The notes beneath the pieces were generated by a model. That model did no database searches. It had not been told where the DNA came from and saw only the letters and a program-made list of their open reading frames with translations. A stretch of DNA of 64,000 nt from Streptomyces sp. CB01249 (GTDB lineage Bacteria; Actinomycetota; Actinomycetes; Streptomycetales; Streptomycetaceae). Below, one piece after another: positions 52,380 through 60,034 of the stretch. Position numbers and translations under genes: made by a program. Each line of letters begins with the position of its first letter. Positions within the stretch are counted from its first letter, which is position 1. The stretch lies in the NCBI RefSeq assembly GCF_001905735.1, contig NZ_LISW01000008.1, forward strand, positions 248,001 to 312,000. Direction: 5' to 3'.

Positions 52380-54563
52380 TCAGGGGTAGGACACCACCTG
52401 CGACGGCACGGTCGAGGTCCCGGAGGTCGGCGAACCCGTGTCGTTGATGACGTGGTTGTACTGGCCCTGGCCGCCGAGCGAGACGACGATCAGGTCGTGG
52501 AACTTCACGCCGGACTTGACCGGGGCCTCGAAGCCGTGGTCCTGGCGGATGCTCGGGTCGACGTTGAAGTAGCAGTAGCTCCCCAGTCCCCAGCCCTCAT
52601 GGGTGTTGACCGAGTCGTCCACCTTGTAGGCGGCGTAGCCCTTGATGTTGCCGTTCTGGACGGCCGCCTGGTTGGGGGCGTCATAGGCCTTCTCGTTCTG
52701 GAAGAAGATCGTCTTGCCGTTCTCGCCGGACCAGCGGACGTCGTACTTGTTGAAGTGCTCGACGAAGAGTCCGGTGGCCAGGACGTTGTCGCCGTTGACC
52801 TGGAGGCCGTAGTCGGAGCGGTTGGTCTCCCAGCCGATGCCCTCGCCGTGGTCGGCGCGCCACAGCCAGGTGTGGTCGATGATCGTGTCGTTGCTGTTGA
52901 TCACCATGCCCGTGGTCGCCTTGCCGGCACCGGCGCCGCCGACCCGGATGAACACGTCCTGGACGCTGGTCGGGTTGGCGGAGTGGTTCGCGGAGGCGCC
53001 GTCGGGGCCGACCTGCACGAGGACCTGGGAGTTCTGCGGACCGGCGTCGACCAGGAGGCCGGCCAGCTTGACGCCGTCCACGTCACCGACCTTGAGGGCG
53101 GTGACCCCGTTGTCCGGGATGATCGTCGCCAGGCCGAGGCCCAGCACGACCGTGTTCGCGCGGTCGATGTTGATCGTCTGGTTCACGTGGTAGATGCCGG
53201 GCGTGAACAGCAGGTGCAGGCCCTGCTGGACGGCCGCGTTGATGGTGGCGGCGGTGGCCCCCGGCTTGACGACGTAGAACTGGCTCAGCGGGATGGACTC
53301 GCCCTGCGGGGTCCCGTTCCAGGAGACGCCGCGCGCGTTGGTGCGCTTGGCGGGGACGAAGACCTTGTAGTCGTTGCCGTCCAGGTAGAGGAACGGCTTC
53401 TCGCGGGAGACCGGGGTGTTCTGGAGGGTGGTGTAGGGCGGCTCGGGGAAGCTCTGGGCGGGCGCGCCCTCGACGCCGGAGAACGTCATGTTCCAGACGC
53501 CGTTGCCCCAGCTGCCGATGGAGCTGTCGCGGGTGTACCACTGCTGCTGCGAGTACGGGCCGACCTGGCCGTCGATCTTGCTGTCGGCGATGTAGCCGCC
53601 GCTCGCCCAGCCGTAGCCGTTCGGGGCGAGGTTGAGGCCGCCCTTGACGTGCATCCGGCGGAACGGAGCGGCCTGCGAGACGGCCCAGCGGTCGGTGCCG
53701 TTGACCGGGTTCAGCGCCAGGTTCTCCGCCGAACGCCAGAAGTTCTGCGTGGCGTTGCCGTTGAACCAGCCCGCGTCCACGGTGACATCACCGTTGAACG
53801 TGGTGTCGTCCGGCTTGAGGCCGAGACCGGCGATCGAGGTGTAGAAGCCGATCTGCGCGTTGATGTTGTTGTACGTGCCCGGCTTGAACATCAGCGCGTA
53901 GCGTCCGTTGCCGAACTGCGCCGACTCCTGCTGGTGGAAGATCTCGTCCACCTTGGCCTGGATGTTGGGCGTCGACGGGTCGAAGACCAGGACGTTCGGG
54001 CCGAGGTCACCGCCGCCCGGGATCTGCGGGCCGCCGTCGCCGCCGGTGGTGCCGAACACCTGGAACTCCCACAGCGAGTAGCCGTAGCCGGTGGCGCGGG
54101 CGGTACCGGTCAGCCGCACGTAGCGGGCGGTGCCCGAGACGTTCAGCGTCTCGTTGCCGCCGGGGCCCGTGGTGGTCGAGTAGGCGGTGCTCCACGTGCT
54201 GTTGTCCGTGGAGAACTCGATCTTGTAGCTCTTGGCGTAGGCGGCCTCCCACCGCAGCGCGATCTGGCTGACCGAGGCGGAGGTGCCCAGGTCGACCTTG
54301 ATCCACTGCGGGTCGGAGAACGCGCTCGACCAGCGGGTGCCGTTGTCGCCGTCGACGGCGGCGGTGGCGGGGGTGCCGTCGCCCTCCTGGCTGGACACGG
54401 TCACCGTCTTGCCCTGCGAGAGCAGGGAAGGGGCCGCGCTGACCGGGGTGGAGGGCACGAAGGCGAGGAGCGAGACGACGAGACCGGCGACGGCGGCCAG
54501 TACGCCGGTGCGTCTTCTTCCGGTCGAAGGTGCGGGTCTGCGGAGCGAGGGGGGTCCATACAT
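52380..54563 (-). CDS. Secreted discoidin (F5/8) plus beta-helix protein, probable carbohydrate-active
   Basis: The 727-residue protein has a signal peptide (about 1-44, ending VSAAP), an F5/8 type C discoidin domain (CBM32-like, about 48-170; QGKTVTVSSQEGDG, NGTRWSSAFSDPQWIKVDLG and the closing LWEFQVFG), a Gly-rich linker and a large parallel beta-helix region (about 185-727) with pectate-lyase-like turns (NGVTALKVGDVDGVKLAGLLVDAG, INSNDTIIDHTWLWRADHG). The helix begins NVLVFDPSTPNIQAKVDEIF. This recalls beta-helix glycoside hydrolases acting on glucans, but I cannot assign a GH family or catalytic residues. ATG 54563 has AGGAGA upstream. A LacI-type palindrome in the promoter region supports a sugar-regulated role. 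Confidence 0.8.
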   Translation of the reverse strand: MYGPPSLRRPAPSTGRRRTGVLAAVAGLVVSLLAFVPSTPVSAAPSLLSQGKTVTVSSQEGDGTPATAAVDGDNGTRWSSAFSDPQWIKVDLGTSASVSQIALRWEAAYAKSYKIEFSTDNSTWSTAYSTTTGPGGNETLNVSGTARYVRLTGTARATGYGYSLWEFQVFGTTGGDGGPQIPGGGDLGPNVLVFDPSTPNIQAKVDEIFHQQESAQFGNGRYALMFKPGTYNNINAQIGFYTSIAGLGLKPDDTTFNGDVTVDAGWFNGNATQNFWRSAENLALNPVNGTDRWAVSQAAPFRRMHVKGGLNLAPNGYGWASGGYIADSKIDGQVGPYSQQQWYTRDSSIGSWGNGVWNMTFSGVEGAPAQSFPEPPYTTLQNTPVSREKPFLYLDGNDYKVFVPAKRTNARGVSWNGTPQGESIPLSQFYVVKPGATAATINAAVQQGLHLLFTPGIYHVNQTINIDRANTVVLGLGLATIIPDNGVTALKVGDVDGVKLAGLLVDAGPQNSQVLVQVGPDGASANHSANPTSVQDVFIRVGGAGAGKATTGMVINSNDTIIDHTWLWRADHGEGIGWETNRSDYGLQVNGDNVLATGLFVEHFNKYDVRWSGENGKTIFFQNEKAYDAPNQAAVQNGNIKGYAAYKVDDSVNTHEGWGLGSYCYFNVDPSIRQDHGFEAPVKSGVKFHDLIVVSLGGQGQYNHVINDTGSPTSGTSTVPSQVVSYP

Positions 54564-54606
54564 GGGGGCTTGTCTCCTGAGTCGCGGAACGGGTGCACGA
54601 CACGAA

Positions 54607-54628
54607 GCCGGAGAGCGCTCTCTCCGGC
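54607..54628. promoter_or_regulatory. Nested palindrome, LacI-type operator candidate
   Basis: GAGAGCGCTCTC (54611-54622) is a perfect palindrome nested in a wider inverted repeat GCCGGAGA-N6-TCTCCGGC (54607-54628). It is 44 bp upstream of the start of the beta-helix gene, downstream of a TTGACG -35-like box (54665-54660, minus). The form resembles operators of sugar-responsive LacI-family repressors (compare the CebR site). Confidence 0.6.
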
Positions 54629-54665
54629 GATGGGGATACTTCACCCCCGGCTCACGACACGTCAA

Positions 54666-54959
54666 TAGGTGTGCACCGACGGCTTGTTCGGGTGGCCTTG
54701 AGGACAACAGTTGACGACGGAAAGCTCACGAGTGTCCGCGTTGCGGCCATCTTGACAGCGCCCGGTTCCCGGGAACTGACGCAGCGTCGGTTCAGTTGAT
54801 GACGGGGTGCGTACGAGGAGTGAATGAGGCGGCGCTGATCGTTGCCACCGCAATCACCGAGCGCGCACCGGGGGCGTCCGGGCCTCCGCACCGCGCCCGC
54901 CCGCGCCTGTTACCGGACATGTTGTTCCCGCTCCGGGGACAGCGGACCCGGCCCCTCGC
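54666..54959. other. Intergenic region, no gene supported
   Basis: The space between the divergent beta-helix gene and the XRE unit shows no gene with codon bias. A TTGACA at about 54752-54757 and a GGTTCCCGGGAACTG inverted repeat (about 54763-54779) may belong to a promoter for the plus strand. Nothing else is seen. Confidence 0.4.
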
Positions 54960-54972: not shown

Positions 54973-55032
54973 ATGAGCCGTGAGCGAGGCGCGAGAAGCA
55001 CCGCTGACCAGGCACGACGAGGCCCGAGGTGA
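54973..55032 (+). CDS. Possible 19-residue leader peptide before the XRE gene
   Basis: A 19-codon frame (MSRERGARSTADQARRGPR) begins 7 nt after TATCCT and ends in TGA at 55030-55032, overlapping the GTG of the regulator frame as GTGA. The peptide is Arg-rich with no recognised family. It may only couple translation to the downstream gene. Codon use is not distinguishable from chance at this length. Confidence 0.35.
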   Translation: MSRERGARSTADQARRGPR

Positions 55033-55037
55033 CCGAG

Positions 55038-56471
55038 ATGACGGGCCCCGCACCCGCGGACGCCCGGAGTGTCCAGGCCTGGCGGGCGTTCGGCGCCCGG
55101 CTGCGGCTGCGGCGCAGGCGGGCCGGTCTCACCCAGGCCCAGGTGGGCGCCCGGGTCGGCTACGACCACACCGCCATCAGCAAACTCGAACACGGCAGCC
55201 GCCGCACCCCGCTCCCGCTGGCCCGCCGCCTGGACCAGCTGCTGGAGGCCGACGGGGACCTCGTCGCCGCCTGCGAGGAGGCCGAGGAGAGGGAGCGCGC
55301 TCAGGCGGCGCCCCTCGCGCCCGGACCGCTGCCCGACCCGGTCCGGCAGGGCCCGCTGCCCGGCGAGCCCGCCGGCGGCGCGCTCCCGGCGATGCTCCCA
55401 CCGGGGACCGTCCTGCCCGGGCGGCTGCCGGTGTACGGCCTGGTCTGCCCGCTGCACGGGCGCGACGGCTGCACGGTCCCCGCCCTCGCCGACGTCGTCG
55501 CCCTGCACGCGCGGTTCTGCGCCCTGGGGCCCGAGGCCGCGGGCCGCCCCGCCCTGGACACCGACACGGTGCACGCCCTGACCGCGCTCCTCGCCGTCTG
55601 CCTGCGCGCCGACGAGGAGCACGCCTGGCCCGGCGCCACCGCCGTGGTCGAGCGCACCCTGCACGCGATGCTCCGCTGGATGGCGCTCCCGGCCGCCCCG
55701 TACCAGCGCCAACTCGCCCCGCTGGCAGCCGAGTACGCGCAGTCGGCCGGCTGCCTCAGGCTCCTCTGGGGGCGCAACGGCACGGCGATGGCCTGGCTGG
55801 ACCGGTCCCTGGTGTGGGCGGCCATGTCCGGCCATGTCGGCGTGCGGGTCGCGGCGCTCAGCGACATGAGCACCCTGGCGCGGCTTGAGGGCGACGGGCC
55901 CTCCGCCCTCGCGTACGGCGAGGCCATCCGCCCGGCCGCGGCGGGCCGGCACTGGGCGGGGGCGATGAGCGATCTGTACCAGGCACGCGGCCACGCGGTG
56001 CGCGGCGACGCCGACCGCAGCCTGCACCACATCGCCCGGGCCTGGGCGCAGATGGACCTGGCCGACGAGCGGGACGAGGCGGAGGCGCCCTGGCTCTCCG
56101 TCGCCTCCGTGCGCCTGCGGGTGGAGTCCGGCGCGGCGGGCGCGCTGCGCGACCTCGCCGTCGCGACGGGGGAGCGCCGCTACGCGCTGCGCGCCCTGGA
56201 CGCGGTCGGCAGCGCGATCCGGCTGCTGCCGCCGGGCCTGCACTCGGCCCGCAAGCTGTTCCTGGCCCGCACGGCGGACGCGTACGTCTGCGCGGGCGAA
56301 CCGGCCGCCGCGTCGGCGGTGGCGGGACCGGTCCTGGACAGCACCGAGGTGCACCCCGCGACCCTGCTCGGCCAGGAGCTGCGCGGACTCCACGGACGGC
56401 TGGCCGGCCGCGCCGACGGGAGTACGGAGACCGAGGAGTTCGTCCGCAGACTGGCCGCCGTCGTCCACTGA
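55038..56471 (+). CDS. XRE-family helix-turn-helix regulator with helical C-terminal domain
   Basis: The 477-residue protein has an N-terminal HTH (about 10-65: ARLRLRRRRAGLTQAQVGARVGY, DHTAISKLEHGSR) followed by a Pro-rich linker and a large helical region (about 150-470) with TPR-like repeats, a layout common in streptomycete regulators such as those related to NsdA/BldD-neighbour families. Target genes are unknown. Start: ATG 55038 has a strong GAGGTGA site 5 nt upstream; GTG 55029, three codons earlier and overlapping the leader ORF stop, is an alternative. The gene is not obviously cotranscribed with anything else. Confidence 0.85.
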   Translation: MTGPAPADARSVQAWRAFGARLRLRRRRAGLTQAQVGARVGYDHTAISKLEHGSRRTPLPLARRLDQLLEADGDLVAACEEAEERERAQAAPLAPGPLPDPVRQGPLPGEPAGGALPAMLPPGTVLPGRLPVYGLVCPLHGRDGCTVPALADVVALHARFCALGPEAAGRPALDTDTVHALTALLAVCLRADEEHAWPGATAVVERTLHAMLRWMALPAAPYQRQLAPLAAEYAQSAGCLRLLWGRNGTAMAWLDRSLVWAAMSGHVGVRVAALSDMSTLARLEGDGPSALAYGEAIRPAAAGRHWAGAMSDLYQARGHAVRGDADRSLHHIARAWAQMDLADERDEAEAPWLSVASVRLRVESGAAGALRDLAVATGERRYALRALDAVGSAIRLLPPGLHSARKLFLARTADAYVCAGEPAAASAVAGPVLDSTEVHPATLLGQELRGLHGRLAGRADGSTETEEFVRRLAAVVH

Positions 56472-56536: not shown

Positions 56537-59500
56537 TCAGCTCACGTCGAGGGCCACATCGTCCACGACGAAGCTGGTCTGCAGGTAGGCGTCCTCCTTA
56601 CTGGTGAAGCCCAGCGTCACCGTCTGCCCGGCGGCCGACGCGACGTCGAAGGTCTTCAGCACATAGCTGTTGGTGGCGTCGAGATTCGAGTACGTCGCCA
56701 GCGTCCGCGACCCCAGCTTCACGGTGAACGTGTCGTACGCGTTCCCGTCCGGCGTCTCGGCGGTGTCGGTCCGCAGGTAGAACGACAGCCGGTAAGTCGA
56801 GCAGCCGGCCGGAACCGTCAGCGACTGGGTGGCGGTGTCGCTGTGCGTGCTGCCCCAGCCGCCGAACCACGCCTGGTACGAGCCGCTGTGCGCGGGCTTC
56901 TCGGAGGTCCGGTTGTTGATGACGCCGCTCGTCTGCGTCCAGGGCGAAGTCCCGTTCTCGAAGCCGCCGTTGGTCACGACCTGCCGGGGCTGGCAGTTCC
57001 CGCCGCCACCGATCACCAGCGAGTACGTGGTGGTGTGCGTGGCCGTGCCGGTACCGGTCACGGTGAGCGTGTACGTACCCGCCGCGGCCTGGGCACTCGC
57101 GGAGACCGTCATCGTGGCCGACGACCCGGACTGCACGGAGGTGGGCGAGAAGGAGACGGTGACGCCGCTCGGCGCACCGGACGCCGTCAGCCGCACGCTC
57201 TGCGCGGAGCCGCTGGTGGTGGCCGTGGACACGGTCGCGGTGACCGAGGAGCCCGGCTGGACGCTGCCCGAGACCGGGTTCACCGAGACGGAGAAGTCGT
57301 CGGCGGGCGCGGTGGAGCCGACTGCCGTCTTCCACAGCGTGTACGCGACCCCGTCGGCGCTGCGGTCGAGCGCGGTGGCGTTGATGTTGGCGGTGGTGTC
57401 GCACGACTGGTGGTAGCAGGGGTCGTACGAACGGCCCGCCGTGCCGCCCCACTTGGATGCCTGGGCCGAGGTCTTCGTGTCACTGGCGCCGGTGGCGTAG
57501 CCGGAGGTGGCGATCCCGCCCTGCTGGAAGGAGTAGTCGTCGGAGCGCCCCTGGCCCTCGACGTTCTCCTCCGGGGCGAGCCCGAGGGAGGTCCAGTACT
57601 CCTTCATCGGCGCCGAGGCGGCCGAGTTGAGGTTGTTGATGAAGTAGCCGCCGTTGACCGAGGCGACCATGTCGAAGTTGTAGTACGCGGTGATGGCGCT
57701 GCGCTGGGCCGAACTCAGCTGGCTGACGTAGTACTTGGAGCCCTGGAGCCCCTGCTCCTCGCCGTTCCACCAGGCGAACCGGACGTGCTTGGTCATGGCC
57801 GGGTTCTGCTGGGCGAGGGCGAGCGCGTTCTCCAGCAGGGTTGCCGAGCCGGAGCCGTTGTCGTTGATCCCGGGCCCGGCGGAGACGCTGTCGAGGTGGG
57901 CGCCGAACATCACGGTGCTGTCGGCGGGGCCGCCCGGCCAGTCCGCGATGAGGTTCTTGCCGGTGTAGGTGCAGGTGGCGCAGGTCTGCTCGGTGACGGT
58001 GTAGCCGGCCGCCTGGAGCTTGCCCTTCACATAGTTGAGCGAGGCGGTGTATCCGTTGCTGCCGGCCCGCCGGTTGCCGCCGTTCTGCGAGGCGAGGGTG
58101 TTGAACTGGGTGAGGTGGGCCTGCACGTTGGCGACGCTGATGTCGGGCGCGGTGCCGCCGGGGTTGCCGCCGCCGTCGTTGACGGTCAGCGTGTACTGGG
58201 CGGTGTGCTCCTGGGTGCCCGCGCCCTTCACGGTGAAGGTGTACGAGCCGGGGGCCGCGGCCGACGTGGTCGACACGGTCATCGTGGACGTGGCGCCGGA
58301 CTGCACCGAGGACGGGCTGAAGGAGACGCTGACCCCGCCGGGCAGGCCGCTCGCCGACAGGTTCACGGTCTGGGCGCTGCCGGACGAGATCGTCGTACGG
58401 ACGGTGGACGTCACCGAGCTGCCGGGCTTCACCGAGCCGGAGGCCGGGTCCAGGGAGAGCGAGAAGTCGTTGTTGCCGCTCGGCGAGCAGGTCGGGTCAC
58501 CGCTCTGGGCGGGCACACTGACCGCGTCCCACGCCGCCTTGGCGCGGTTGTACAGCGTGCAGGTGGCGTCGAGGTTCTTGGCAGCGGTGAGGGTGGCCGT
58601 GCGGTAGCGCTTGTACGTCATGCCGCTGGTCTTCAGGAGCATGCCGCCGTAGAACACCTTGCCGGCGCTCTGGATGCCCACACCGGTGACCGTCGAGTTG
58701 TTGCAGGTGGGGCTGGAGGGCTTGCCGCCGCCGGGGTTCGAGCCCTCGGCGAGCAGATAGAACCAGTGGTTGAGGGGCCCGGCCGCCGCGTGCTCCTCGG
58801 TGCTGGGTATGGAGGAGCTGTAGCAGTTCGGGTCGCCGATCTGGCCGGGGTTGTACATGATCCGGATCGGCCCGTTGCCGACGAGGTTGATCTTCTCGCC
58901 GACGGTGTAGTCCGGATCGTCGTACGGGGCCGGCTCGTTGGTGTACGCCTCGGTGAGCGCGCCCATGATGTCGCCGGTGGCCTCGCCGAGCCCGGACTCG
59001 TTGTTGGCGCCGCCGGGGGTGTACTGGTCGATGCCGTGGCCGAACTCGTGGCCCACGACGTCCATGGCGCCGATCCACTGGTTGGCCTGGTTGTGGCCGA
59101 TGGAGACCGTGGAGCCGTCCCAGTACGCGTTGACGTCGTTGAGGCCGACCTTCACCGGCCAGCTGCGGCCGTTGCCGTCGTGCCCGTTGCGCCCGAGCCA
59201 GTCGCGCAGCATGTCCCACTCGTGCTGGGCCGCCCACATCACGTCGACGCAGCCGGTCTCCTTGCTGGACGCGTTGCCGGTGCCCCAGGAGTCGGTGGAC
59301 TTGGTGAACACGCTCCCGGTGCTGTAGTCGGCGCAGCTGAGCCCGGGGCGGTTCGGGTCGCGCAGCGAGTAACTGCTGCCCGACGACGTGGTGTTGATGG
59401 TGAGCGGGTTGGGTCCGTTCCACTGGCTGTTGCCGGTGCCGGCCCGGACGTCGTCATAGCTGTCGATGACCGCGCCGGTGCCCGCGTCCACGAACACGTG

Positions 59501-60034
59501 CAGCCGGCTGGGCGCCTTCGCGGTCCGGCCCGTGAGCACGGTCTCCCAGGCCAGCCGGGAGCGCTTGTCGGTGGCCCGTACGACGAGCCGGTGGCTCTCG
59601 ACCTCGTCCACCGTGCGCAGCTGCTTGCGCGAGGTGGCCTCCGCGGCCTTCGCGGAAACGGTCGCGGTGGTGGGCACGTTGATGCGCCGCGAGACCGCCG
59701 ACTGCGAACCGCGCACCCGGCCCTTGGAGTCGGCCACCACGACGGCGTCCCCGCCGACCACGGGCAGGCCGCGGTAGGTGCGCTCGTACGCGACGGAGTA
59801 GAGGCCGTTGATCCACGGGGTGACCATCCGGCGCTCGTAGCGCTCCTCCGGGCCCTTGGCCAGGGTGTCGAGCCCGCTGGCCGCGGCCCTGTCGGCGGCG
59901 GTGACGGCGGTGGTGAGTGCCTTGGGGGCGGGCGGCGGTGTGGGATCCGCCGAGGCGGACGGGCCGCTGACGGCGACCAGCATTCCGGCGAGGACGGCCA
60001 GGGTCGTCCCGGCCGTCAACGGTCTGCGTTTCAT
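56537..60034 (-). CDS. Secreted double protease: M4 thermolysin-type plus M28 aminopeptidase-type
   Basis: The 1165-residue secreted protein has a signal peptide (about 1-29, SASADP), an FTP/PepSY-like propeptide (about 60-200), an M4 metallopeptidase domain (about 215-510; zinc site HEFGH at 329-333 and E351 in GLGEATGD, plus H415 region [11 protein letters not shown]), an Ig-like bacterial domain (524-618), an M28 domain (about 628-905; zinc ligands H713 and D715 in AHLDS, D725 in NDNGSGS, E759/E760 in WWNGEEQG, D788 in YNFDMV, H875), a second copy of the Ig-like domain (913-1008) and a C-terminal beta-sandwich (1015-1165). Both catalytic domains look intact, so one polypeptide may combine endo- and aminopeptidase action. 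ATG 60034 has GAGGAG upstream. Confidence 0.92.
57011..57298 (-). repeat. Ig-like domain coding repeat, copy 2
   Basis: This stretch encodes residues 913-1008 of the double protease and is clearly related to the stretch at 58181-58465 (shared SGSVxPGSSVT, SGSAQ, VSFSP, SVQSG). It is an internal duplication placed on either side of the M28 domain. Confidence 0.75.
58181..58465 (-). repeat. Ig-like domain coding repeat, copy 1
   Basis: It encodes residues 524-618, between the M4 and M28 domains, and is the partner of the repeat at 57011-57298. Confidence 0.75.

Follow-up and report, generated by a model that had tools for sequence, protein, structure and literature searches.

A predicted secreted fusion of M4 and M28 zinc peptidases in Streptomyces and its exchanged C-terminal module

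Can one secreted chain carry two different working zinc peptidases, and what would be gained by joining them? The question is raised by a gene in the window (the whole 64,000-nucleotide stretch of Streptomyces sp. CB01249 DNA that was analysed), which the first-pass annotation had read as one polypeptide with an M4 and an M28 peptidase. That reading is confirmed by a single 1165-aa open frame in which both Pfam families score above their cut-offs. The gene and its parts, from the N-terminus onwards, are as follows.

56537..60034, minus strand: whole gene, M4-M28 fusion peptidase, 1165 aa, single open frame
59948..60034, minus strand: probable signal peptide, residues ~1-29, judged by eye from the translated N-terminus
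59447..59929, minus strand: FTP/PepSY-type prodomain of the M4 peptidase, residues ~36-196 (Pfam FTP, 30.2 bits)
58499..59446, minus strand: M4 (thermolysin-type) catalytic domain, residues 197-512 (Pfam M4 and M4_C; HEFGH 329-333, E351, H415)
58175..58462, minus strand: Ig-like linker domain 1, residues ~525-620 (alignment with Ig-like domain 2; strands in the full-length model)
57320..58150, minus strand: M28 aminopeptidase domain, residues 629-905 (Pfam, 162.9 bits; ungapped match to SGAP, 1cp7)
57005..57298, minus strand: Ig-like domain 2, residues ~913-1010 (predicted model; VIA-align match to 2ber)
56540..56986, minus strand: C-terminal MAM/CBM-like jelly-roll module, residues ~1017-1165 (by fold similarity, VIA-align)

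The sequence AGGAG lies 5 bases upstream of the ATG. By eye the N-terminus (MKRR, a hydrophobic stretch, then ASA-D) looks signal-like, and the protein is probably secreted. The first-pass description had included neither the prodomain nor the C-terminal jelly-roll module.

The M4 half scores 102.1 bits for Peptidase_M4 (cut-off 22.4) and 80.0 for Peptidase_M4_C (cut-off 24.4), and it is preceded by an FTP prodomain (30.2 bits, cut-off 21); PepSY stays below its cut-off of 24 at 13.7 bits. The HEFGH motif and E351 stand where the first-pass annotation had placed them, and H415 can be added to its list. We take H329, E330, H333, E351 and H415 to form the HExxH motif, the distant glutamate ligand and the catalytic histidine. 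Family M4 is thus indicated by the Pfam domains, by the HExxH motif with its distant glutamate and histidine, and by the FTP/PepSY-type prodomain; the half is a complete thermolysin-type site for which endopeptidase activity is predicted. Enzymes of family M4 are synthesised as zymogens that carry an FTP prodomain. Other thermolysin-type M4 peptidases, for example E495 of Pseudoalteromonas, resemble the fusion in having a prodomain, M4 and M4_C domains, HExxH with a distant glutamate, and C-terminal modules (PMC3327674, partial text). Unlike in these enzymes, the 'accessory' part of the fusion includes a second complete peptidase.

This second peptidase reaches 162.9 bits for Peptidase_M28 (cut-off 21.3), and all of its site residues are present (H713, D715, D725, E759, E760, D788, H875), as the first-pass annotation had listed them. 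Following a glycine-rich stretch, the M28 half begins at residue 1 of the solved chain of Streptomyces griseus aminopeptidase (SGAP, 1cp7) and aligns with it over 282 residues without a gap (150/282 identical, 53%, E 8.1e-92). Residues H713, D725, E760, D788, H875 and E759 fall one to one on SGAP residues 85, 97, 132, 160, 247 and 131, which we take to be the ligands of the two zinc ions and the catalytic glutamate. D631, I632, D890 and D894 match what is presumably the SGAP calcium site, and the presumed substrate-binding residues of SGAP also correspond. The Pfam match, the two-zinc ligands and the catalytic glutamate point to a SGAP-like member of family M28; the half is a complete SGAP-type site with predicted aminopeptidase activity. 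Judged by sequence, each half is an ordinary enzyme of its family, and the architecture is a new variant. The M28 half also carries a CxxC pair, C685/C688 (window 57971-57982), which is not found in SGAP and is kept in 51 of 54 fusions.

Are both sites maintained among the relatives of this protein? A set of 63 fusion frames was collected, 54 of them distinct from M4 to M28. In the M4 half, H329, E330, H333, E351, D355, H415, N302 and A303 are invariant in all 54 distinct fusions, and so are H713, D715, D725, E759, E760, D788, R830, Y874 and H875 in the M28 half; an earlier set of 31 fusions has the same invariance at the positions tested in both. The loss of one catalytic site on careful alignment, named by the first-pass annotation as an outcome that would overturn it, is ruled out by this invariance. 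Of six domains, M4 and M28 have the lowest median pairwise dN/dS (0.18 and 0.24), against 0.29-0.34 in the prodomain, the Ig domains and the tail (simple counting method, 31 sequences, pairs with dS of 0.05-1.0, 377-465 pairs per domain; three rows without a jelly roll were left out for the tail). These values indicate purifying selection on both halves. Together with the invariant residues, they support the view that a single chain holds two zinc peptidase sites, both complete.

How are the two enzymes held with respect to each other? The full-length AlphaFold model, at a mean pLDDT of 55.7, is too low in confidence to place the two active sites relative to each other, and its M4 region, with 26 aligned rows, contains blocks at pLDDT 21-33. 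The Ig-like domains, of ~98 residues each, lie one between M4 and M28 and one after M28. In the full-length model, domain 1 comes out as strands, in blocks of ten residues at pLDDT 75-91, and the predicted model of domain 2 (blocks at pLDDT 78-96) matches residues 404-502 of the Micromonospora sialidase chain 2ber with a VIA-align Z of 12.1 over 93 residues. The two had been called near-identical, which overstates a likeness of 64 identical residues among 100 aligned. A tree of 33 of the 92 Ig domains sorts them mostly by their position in the fusions, so that the pair is not a fresh duplication. A 621-aa frame elsewhere in the window's genome (L005:1501-2043) matches residues 904-1089 of the query, that is, Ig domain 2 and the start of the tail, at 46%.

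The stretch from M4 to M28 measures 113-117 residues and holds an Ig domain in 62 of the 63 fusion frames; in the remaining one (L134) it measures 35 residues and has no Ig domain. These spacer lengths fit two tethered enzymes better than one channel. The processive digestion put forward by the first-pass annotation finds no support here.

The last ~150 residues are predicted with fair confidence to fold as a jelly roll (ten-residue blocks at pLDDT 56-93). Their fold matches are MAM domains and carbohydrate-binding modules (VIA-align Z 10.5-12.9 over ~120-145 residues), for example 5x7o (Z 12.9 over 134 residues) and promeprin beta, 4gwm (Z 12.8 over 140 residues). MAM and several CBMs tie in this search, so that no single family is picked out, and in the window protein no CBM family of Pfam passes its cut-off; the tail is therefore a putative binding-type module by its fold alone. 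C-terminal PPC domains bind protein and accompany a higher efficiency of one M4 enzyme on proteins (PMC3327674, partial text).

The ending of the chain is not constant. When M4 and M28 domains are compared as pairs, 53 fusions are distinct; of these, 39 have the order FTP-M4-Ig-M28-Ig-jelly roll, 13 end differently and one, L134, reads FTP-M4-M28-jelly roll. All 13 without a jelly roll were scanned with Pfam: seven carry CBM_5_12 above cut-off (L031, L125, L131, L137, L139, L140 and L143), five carry P_proprotein above cut-off (L063, L127, L128, L129 and L130), and in L024 CBM_5_12 lies just under its cut-off (22.4 against 26.2). Thus, the tail has been swapped while the catalytic pair stayed. 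It is this exchange of the last module (jelly roll, chitin-type CBM5/12 or P-domain) next to a catalytic pair that is kept which, on sequence grounds, is new here.

What could such a chain do? The reading that we consider somewhat better than an even bet is a two-headed secreted zinc protease held on an insoluble substrate by one shared tail. The chain would be exported by the general secretory route, and the FTP prodomain would keep the M4 head silent until a clip near residue 196. The mature chain of ~970 residues would then consist of an active M4 peptidase, an Ig-like spacer, an active SGAP-type M28 peptidase, a second spacer and one terminal module. With the terminal module anchoring the chain on the insoluble substrate, M4 would open a protein internally and the nearby M28 would trim the new N-termini. 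The gain would lie in local coupling of endo- and exopeptidase, an anchor that both heads share and a dose fixed at 1:1, and not in processivity. Two enzymes side by side on a bound substrate are favoured by the single tail at the far end, by its exchange and by the strict upkeep of both sites. A set of fungal peptidases of families S8, M28 and M3 has been reported to degrade keratin together, with confirmation by pure enzymes pending there; this resembles the endo- and exopeptidase teamwork proposed for the fusion, but the fungal set consists of separate secreted proteins and has no M4 enzyme (PMC4756042, partial text). In the main text of a paper on the keratin secretome of Streptomyces sp. 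G11C, M28 is mentioned once, for a fungus, and thermolysin or M04 is not mentioned, so that this main text gives no sign of the fusion (PMC7693968, partial text).

Does the chain stay whole? The first-pass annotation had also considered that it may be cut into two enzymes. On that account the fusion is a precursor: its own M4 or another protease would cut the glycine-rich linkers after secretion and free a thermolysin-like and a SGAP-like enzyme, and the fusion would mainly ensure equal amounts, with M4 activity controlling the release of the aminopeptidase. We regard this as the less likely account but as a serious rival, and it draws on several precedents. The start of the M28 half at SGAP residue 1, after a glycine-rich stretch, is in keeping with such a cut. 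The elastase that cuts PaAP, the M28 aminopeptidase of Pseudomonas aeruginosa, is presumably an M4 enzyme. PaAP depends for its activity on endopeptidase cuts, by elastase and LysC, in the linker adjoining its M28 domain; there the endopeptidase and the aminopeptidase are separate proteins, unlike in the fusion (PMC11313473, partial text). SGAP in culture filtrate is the catalytic domain alone, of ~30 kDa (PMC11313473, partial text), whereas the M28 of the fusion stands behind M4 and between Ig-like domains. Three secreted forms of the M4 enzyme E495 have been described, which retain two, one or none of its C-terminal domains (PMC3327674, partial text). The bare SGAP domain and these trimmed M4 forms suggest that the fusion chain, too, may be cut. 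Against this, an M4 enzyme set free would be parted from the terminal module, whereas in an unfused relative each enzyme has one of its own. In that relative (L132) separate neighbouring genes encode M4-jelly roll and then M28-jelly roll, in the order of the fusion and on the same strand. A second unfused locus (L133) has M4-Ig and then M28, likewise in the order of the fusion and on one strand; in the last ~180 residues of its M28 gene no tail is named by profiles or Pfam, so that a separate tail for each partner is seen in L132 only.

Does only one of the two heads matter in nature, the other being a passenger, or M4 serving only to mature the M28 half? M28 can evidently do without M4, since M28-only relatives exist at 22 Micromonospora and 3 Streptomyces loci. 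However, M4 is under the strongest constraint of all six domains, its tested residues are kept in every distinct fusion, and M4-only relatives exist as well; we hold this reading to be improbable. The stand-alone proteins repeat the second half of the fusion in its order of M28, (Ig) and tail, as M28-Ig-CTD in Micromonospora and as M28-CTD, without the Ig domain, in Streptomyces (L053-L055); they have no M4 head, and those that were examined have signal-like N-termini. One M4-only relative, in Streptomyces atratus OK807 (L050:5983-7200), is a broken copy in two frames with a stop between them, and the stretch examined there has no M28 match.

Have the two halves always travelled together? In the M28 tree, the M28-only proteins of Micromonospora and Streptomyces (L053/L054) branch from within the fusions, which argues that the pair has not always been kept in one chain. 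The M28 tree requires three changes, such as a single fusion event with the M4 head lost twice, and the M4 tree six; whether the M4 head was gained or lost depends on the root, and the six single-enzyme rows taken as the M28 outgroup are not split off by any one branch, since the unfused L132 and L133 fall among them. AU tests reject a tree in which all fusions form one exclusive clade (p 8.7e-31 for M28 with 40 rows and 6.5e-5 for M4 with 37 rows), p-values that are not clean because earlier trees had been seen beforehand and rows were chosen. In three fusions of family f86 (L131, L137 and L143), the M28 halves lie outside all other fusions and the M4 halves lie among other f86 copies, a conflict that perhaps reflects an exchange of halves. 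M4 and M28 distances agree (Mantel r 0.91, 0/2000 permutations as high), which fits joint descent but may also come from a shared species history. On a plasmid of Streptomyces sp. SYP-A7193 (L060, 6001-15516), separate M4-Ig, M28-Ig and S8 genes come after the fusion on its strand, forming a small protease cluster. In Embleya (L058:4101-5744), a separate FTP-M4 frame lies directly upstream of the fusion.

How widespread is the fusion, and is it genuine? With a 421-residue junction query, the M4-to-M28 junction is found in one stop-free frame in at least 44 of 246 Streptomyces genomes, including the window's own (46 spanning matches, counted by eye among the matches listed, sorted by E-value; a lower bound, since seven candidates were scored per genome). 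After the spanning set, E falls from 1e-179 to 1e-78 and matches cover one side of the junction only. The fusion is a minority trait, for 202 of the 246 genomes have no spanning match among the matches listed. When a named collection was scanned, 50 loci came up: 24 Streptomyces fusions (L008-L031), 22 Micromonospora loci with M28-Ig-tail alone, 3 Streptomyces loci with M28-tail alone and 1 broken M4-only copy. Other genomes do have M4 and M28 as separate genes next to each other, but nothing was found to favour a sequencing or assembly error joining two genes, which the first-pass annotation had named as a refuter, and we dismiss it, since the stop-free junction recurs in those 44 or more Streptomyces genomes and at 24 of the 50 loci, with the downstream neighbour gene conserved at 22 of 24.

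Beyond this genus sample, 14 of 394 genomes of the class have a spanning match among the genomes listed, 7 from Streptomyces (of 40 of the same genus) and 7 from family f86; in one genome of family f110 (G768), both halves appear as two matches in one frame, which brings the fusion to 15 of 394. In the phylum (296 genomes), the window's own genome is the only one with a spanning match among the matches listed, and the eight other Streptomyces listed there have none. Plasmid records also carry it: 10 of 74 match 80% or more of the protein at a single place among the matches listed (Streptomyces and Embleya), and a Nonomuraea record with 79% at one place proves on reading to hold a complete fusion frame. 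No fusion from outside Actinomycetota is found among 40 of the 74 matching plasmid records listed. The genomes and records examined thus place M4-M28 fusions in Streptomyces, f86, f110, Embleya and Nonomuraea. Three long M28-bearing frames were rejected as missed fusions (G008, 1195 aa; G033, 860 aa; G003, 910 aa), since the M4 profile does not match them and M28 matches weakly. The first of these is the Streptomyces frame L144:980-4564, with a distant M28 match and no M4 profile match.

In the five plasmid records that annotate the fusion, it is called 'M28 family peptidase' or 'M20/M25/M40 family metallo-hydrolase'. The thermolysin-type half thus goes unnamed, although between 1 in 5 and 1 in 6 of the Streptomyces genomes sampled carry the fusion. 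No description of an M4-M28 fusion was found in the titles and abstract openings of the open-licence literature, which is weak evidence of novelty. Tentatively, and with rather less confidence than an even chance would allow, the fusions may form a class of protein degraders in actinomycetes, two-headed and anchored, in which a fixed M4-M28 pair with a swappable surface-binding tail, repeatedly split and possibly rebuilt, would act on matrix-embedded protein. Such degraders on insoluble matrices can be likened to the bifunctional carbohydrate-active enzymes that act on plant walls. The fused, split and tail-swapped relatives offer a natural experiment on whether joining endo- and exopeptidase to a shared anchor speeds the digestion of insoluble proteins such as keratin, cuticle and cell-wall protein.

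The window's genome has other peptidase genes of both families. Further M4 genes are found at L002-L004 (the match at L002 has an internal stop), with a weak match at L007, and six further M28 matches reach at most 44.5 bits, against 167.3 for the fusion gene. On one side, the fusion gene lies tail to tail with the gene of a helix-turn-helix protein (55029-56471, plus strand), which is found at this position in 22 of 24 fusion loci, all but L024 and L031 (in one of the 22 the contig end cuts it). Genes for two aldo/keto reductases and a protein kinase flank the fusion gene on the other side, and none of the neighbours suggests a shared transcript. Two genes away from the fusion, at 52380-54707 on the minus strand of the window, a 775-aa frame carries an F5/8 type C domain; it lies close to the fusion in 13 of 24 loci.
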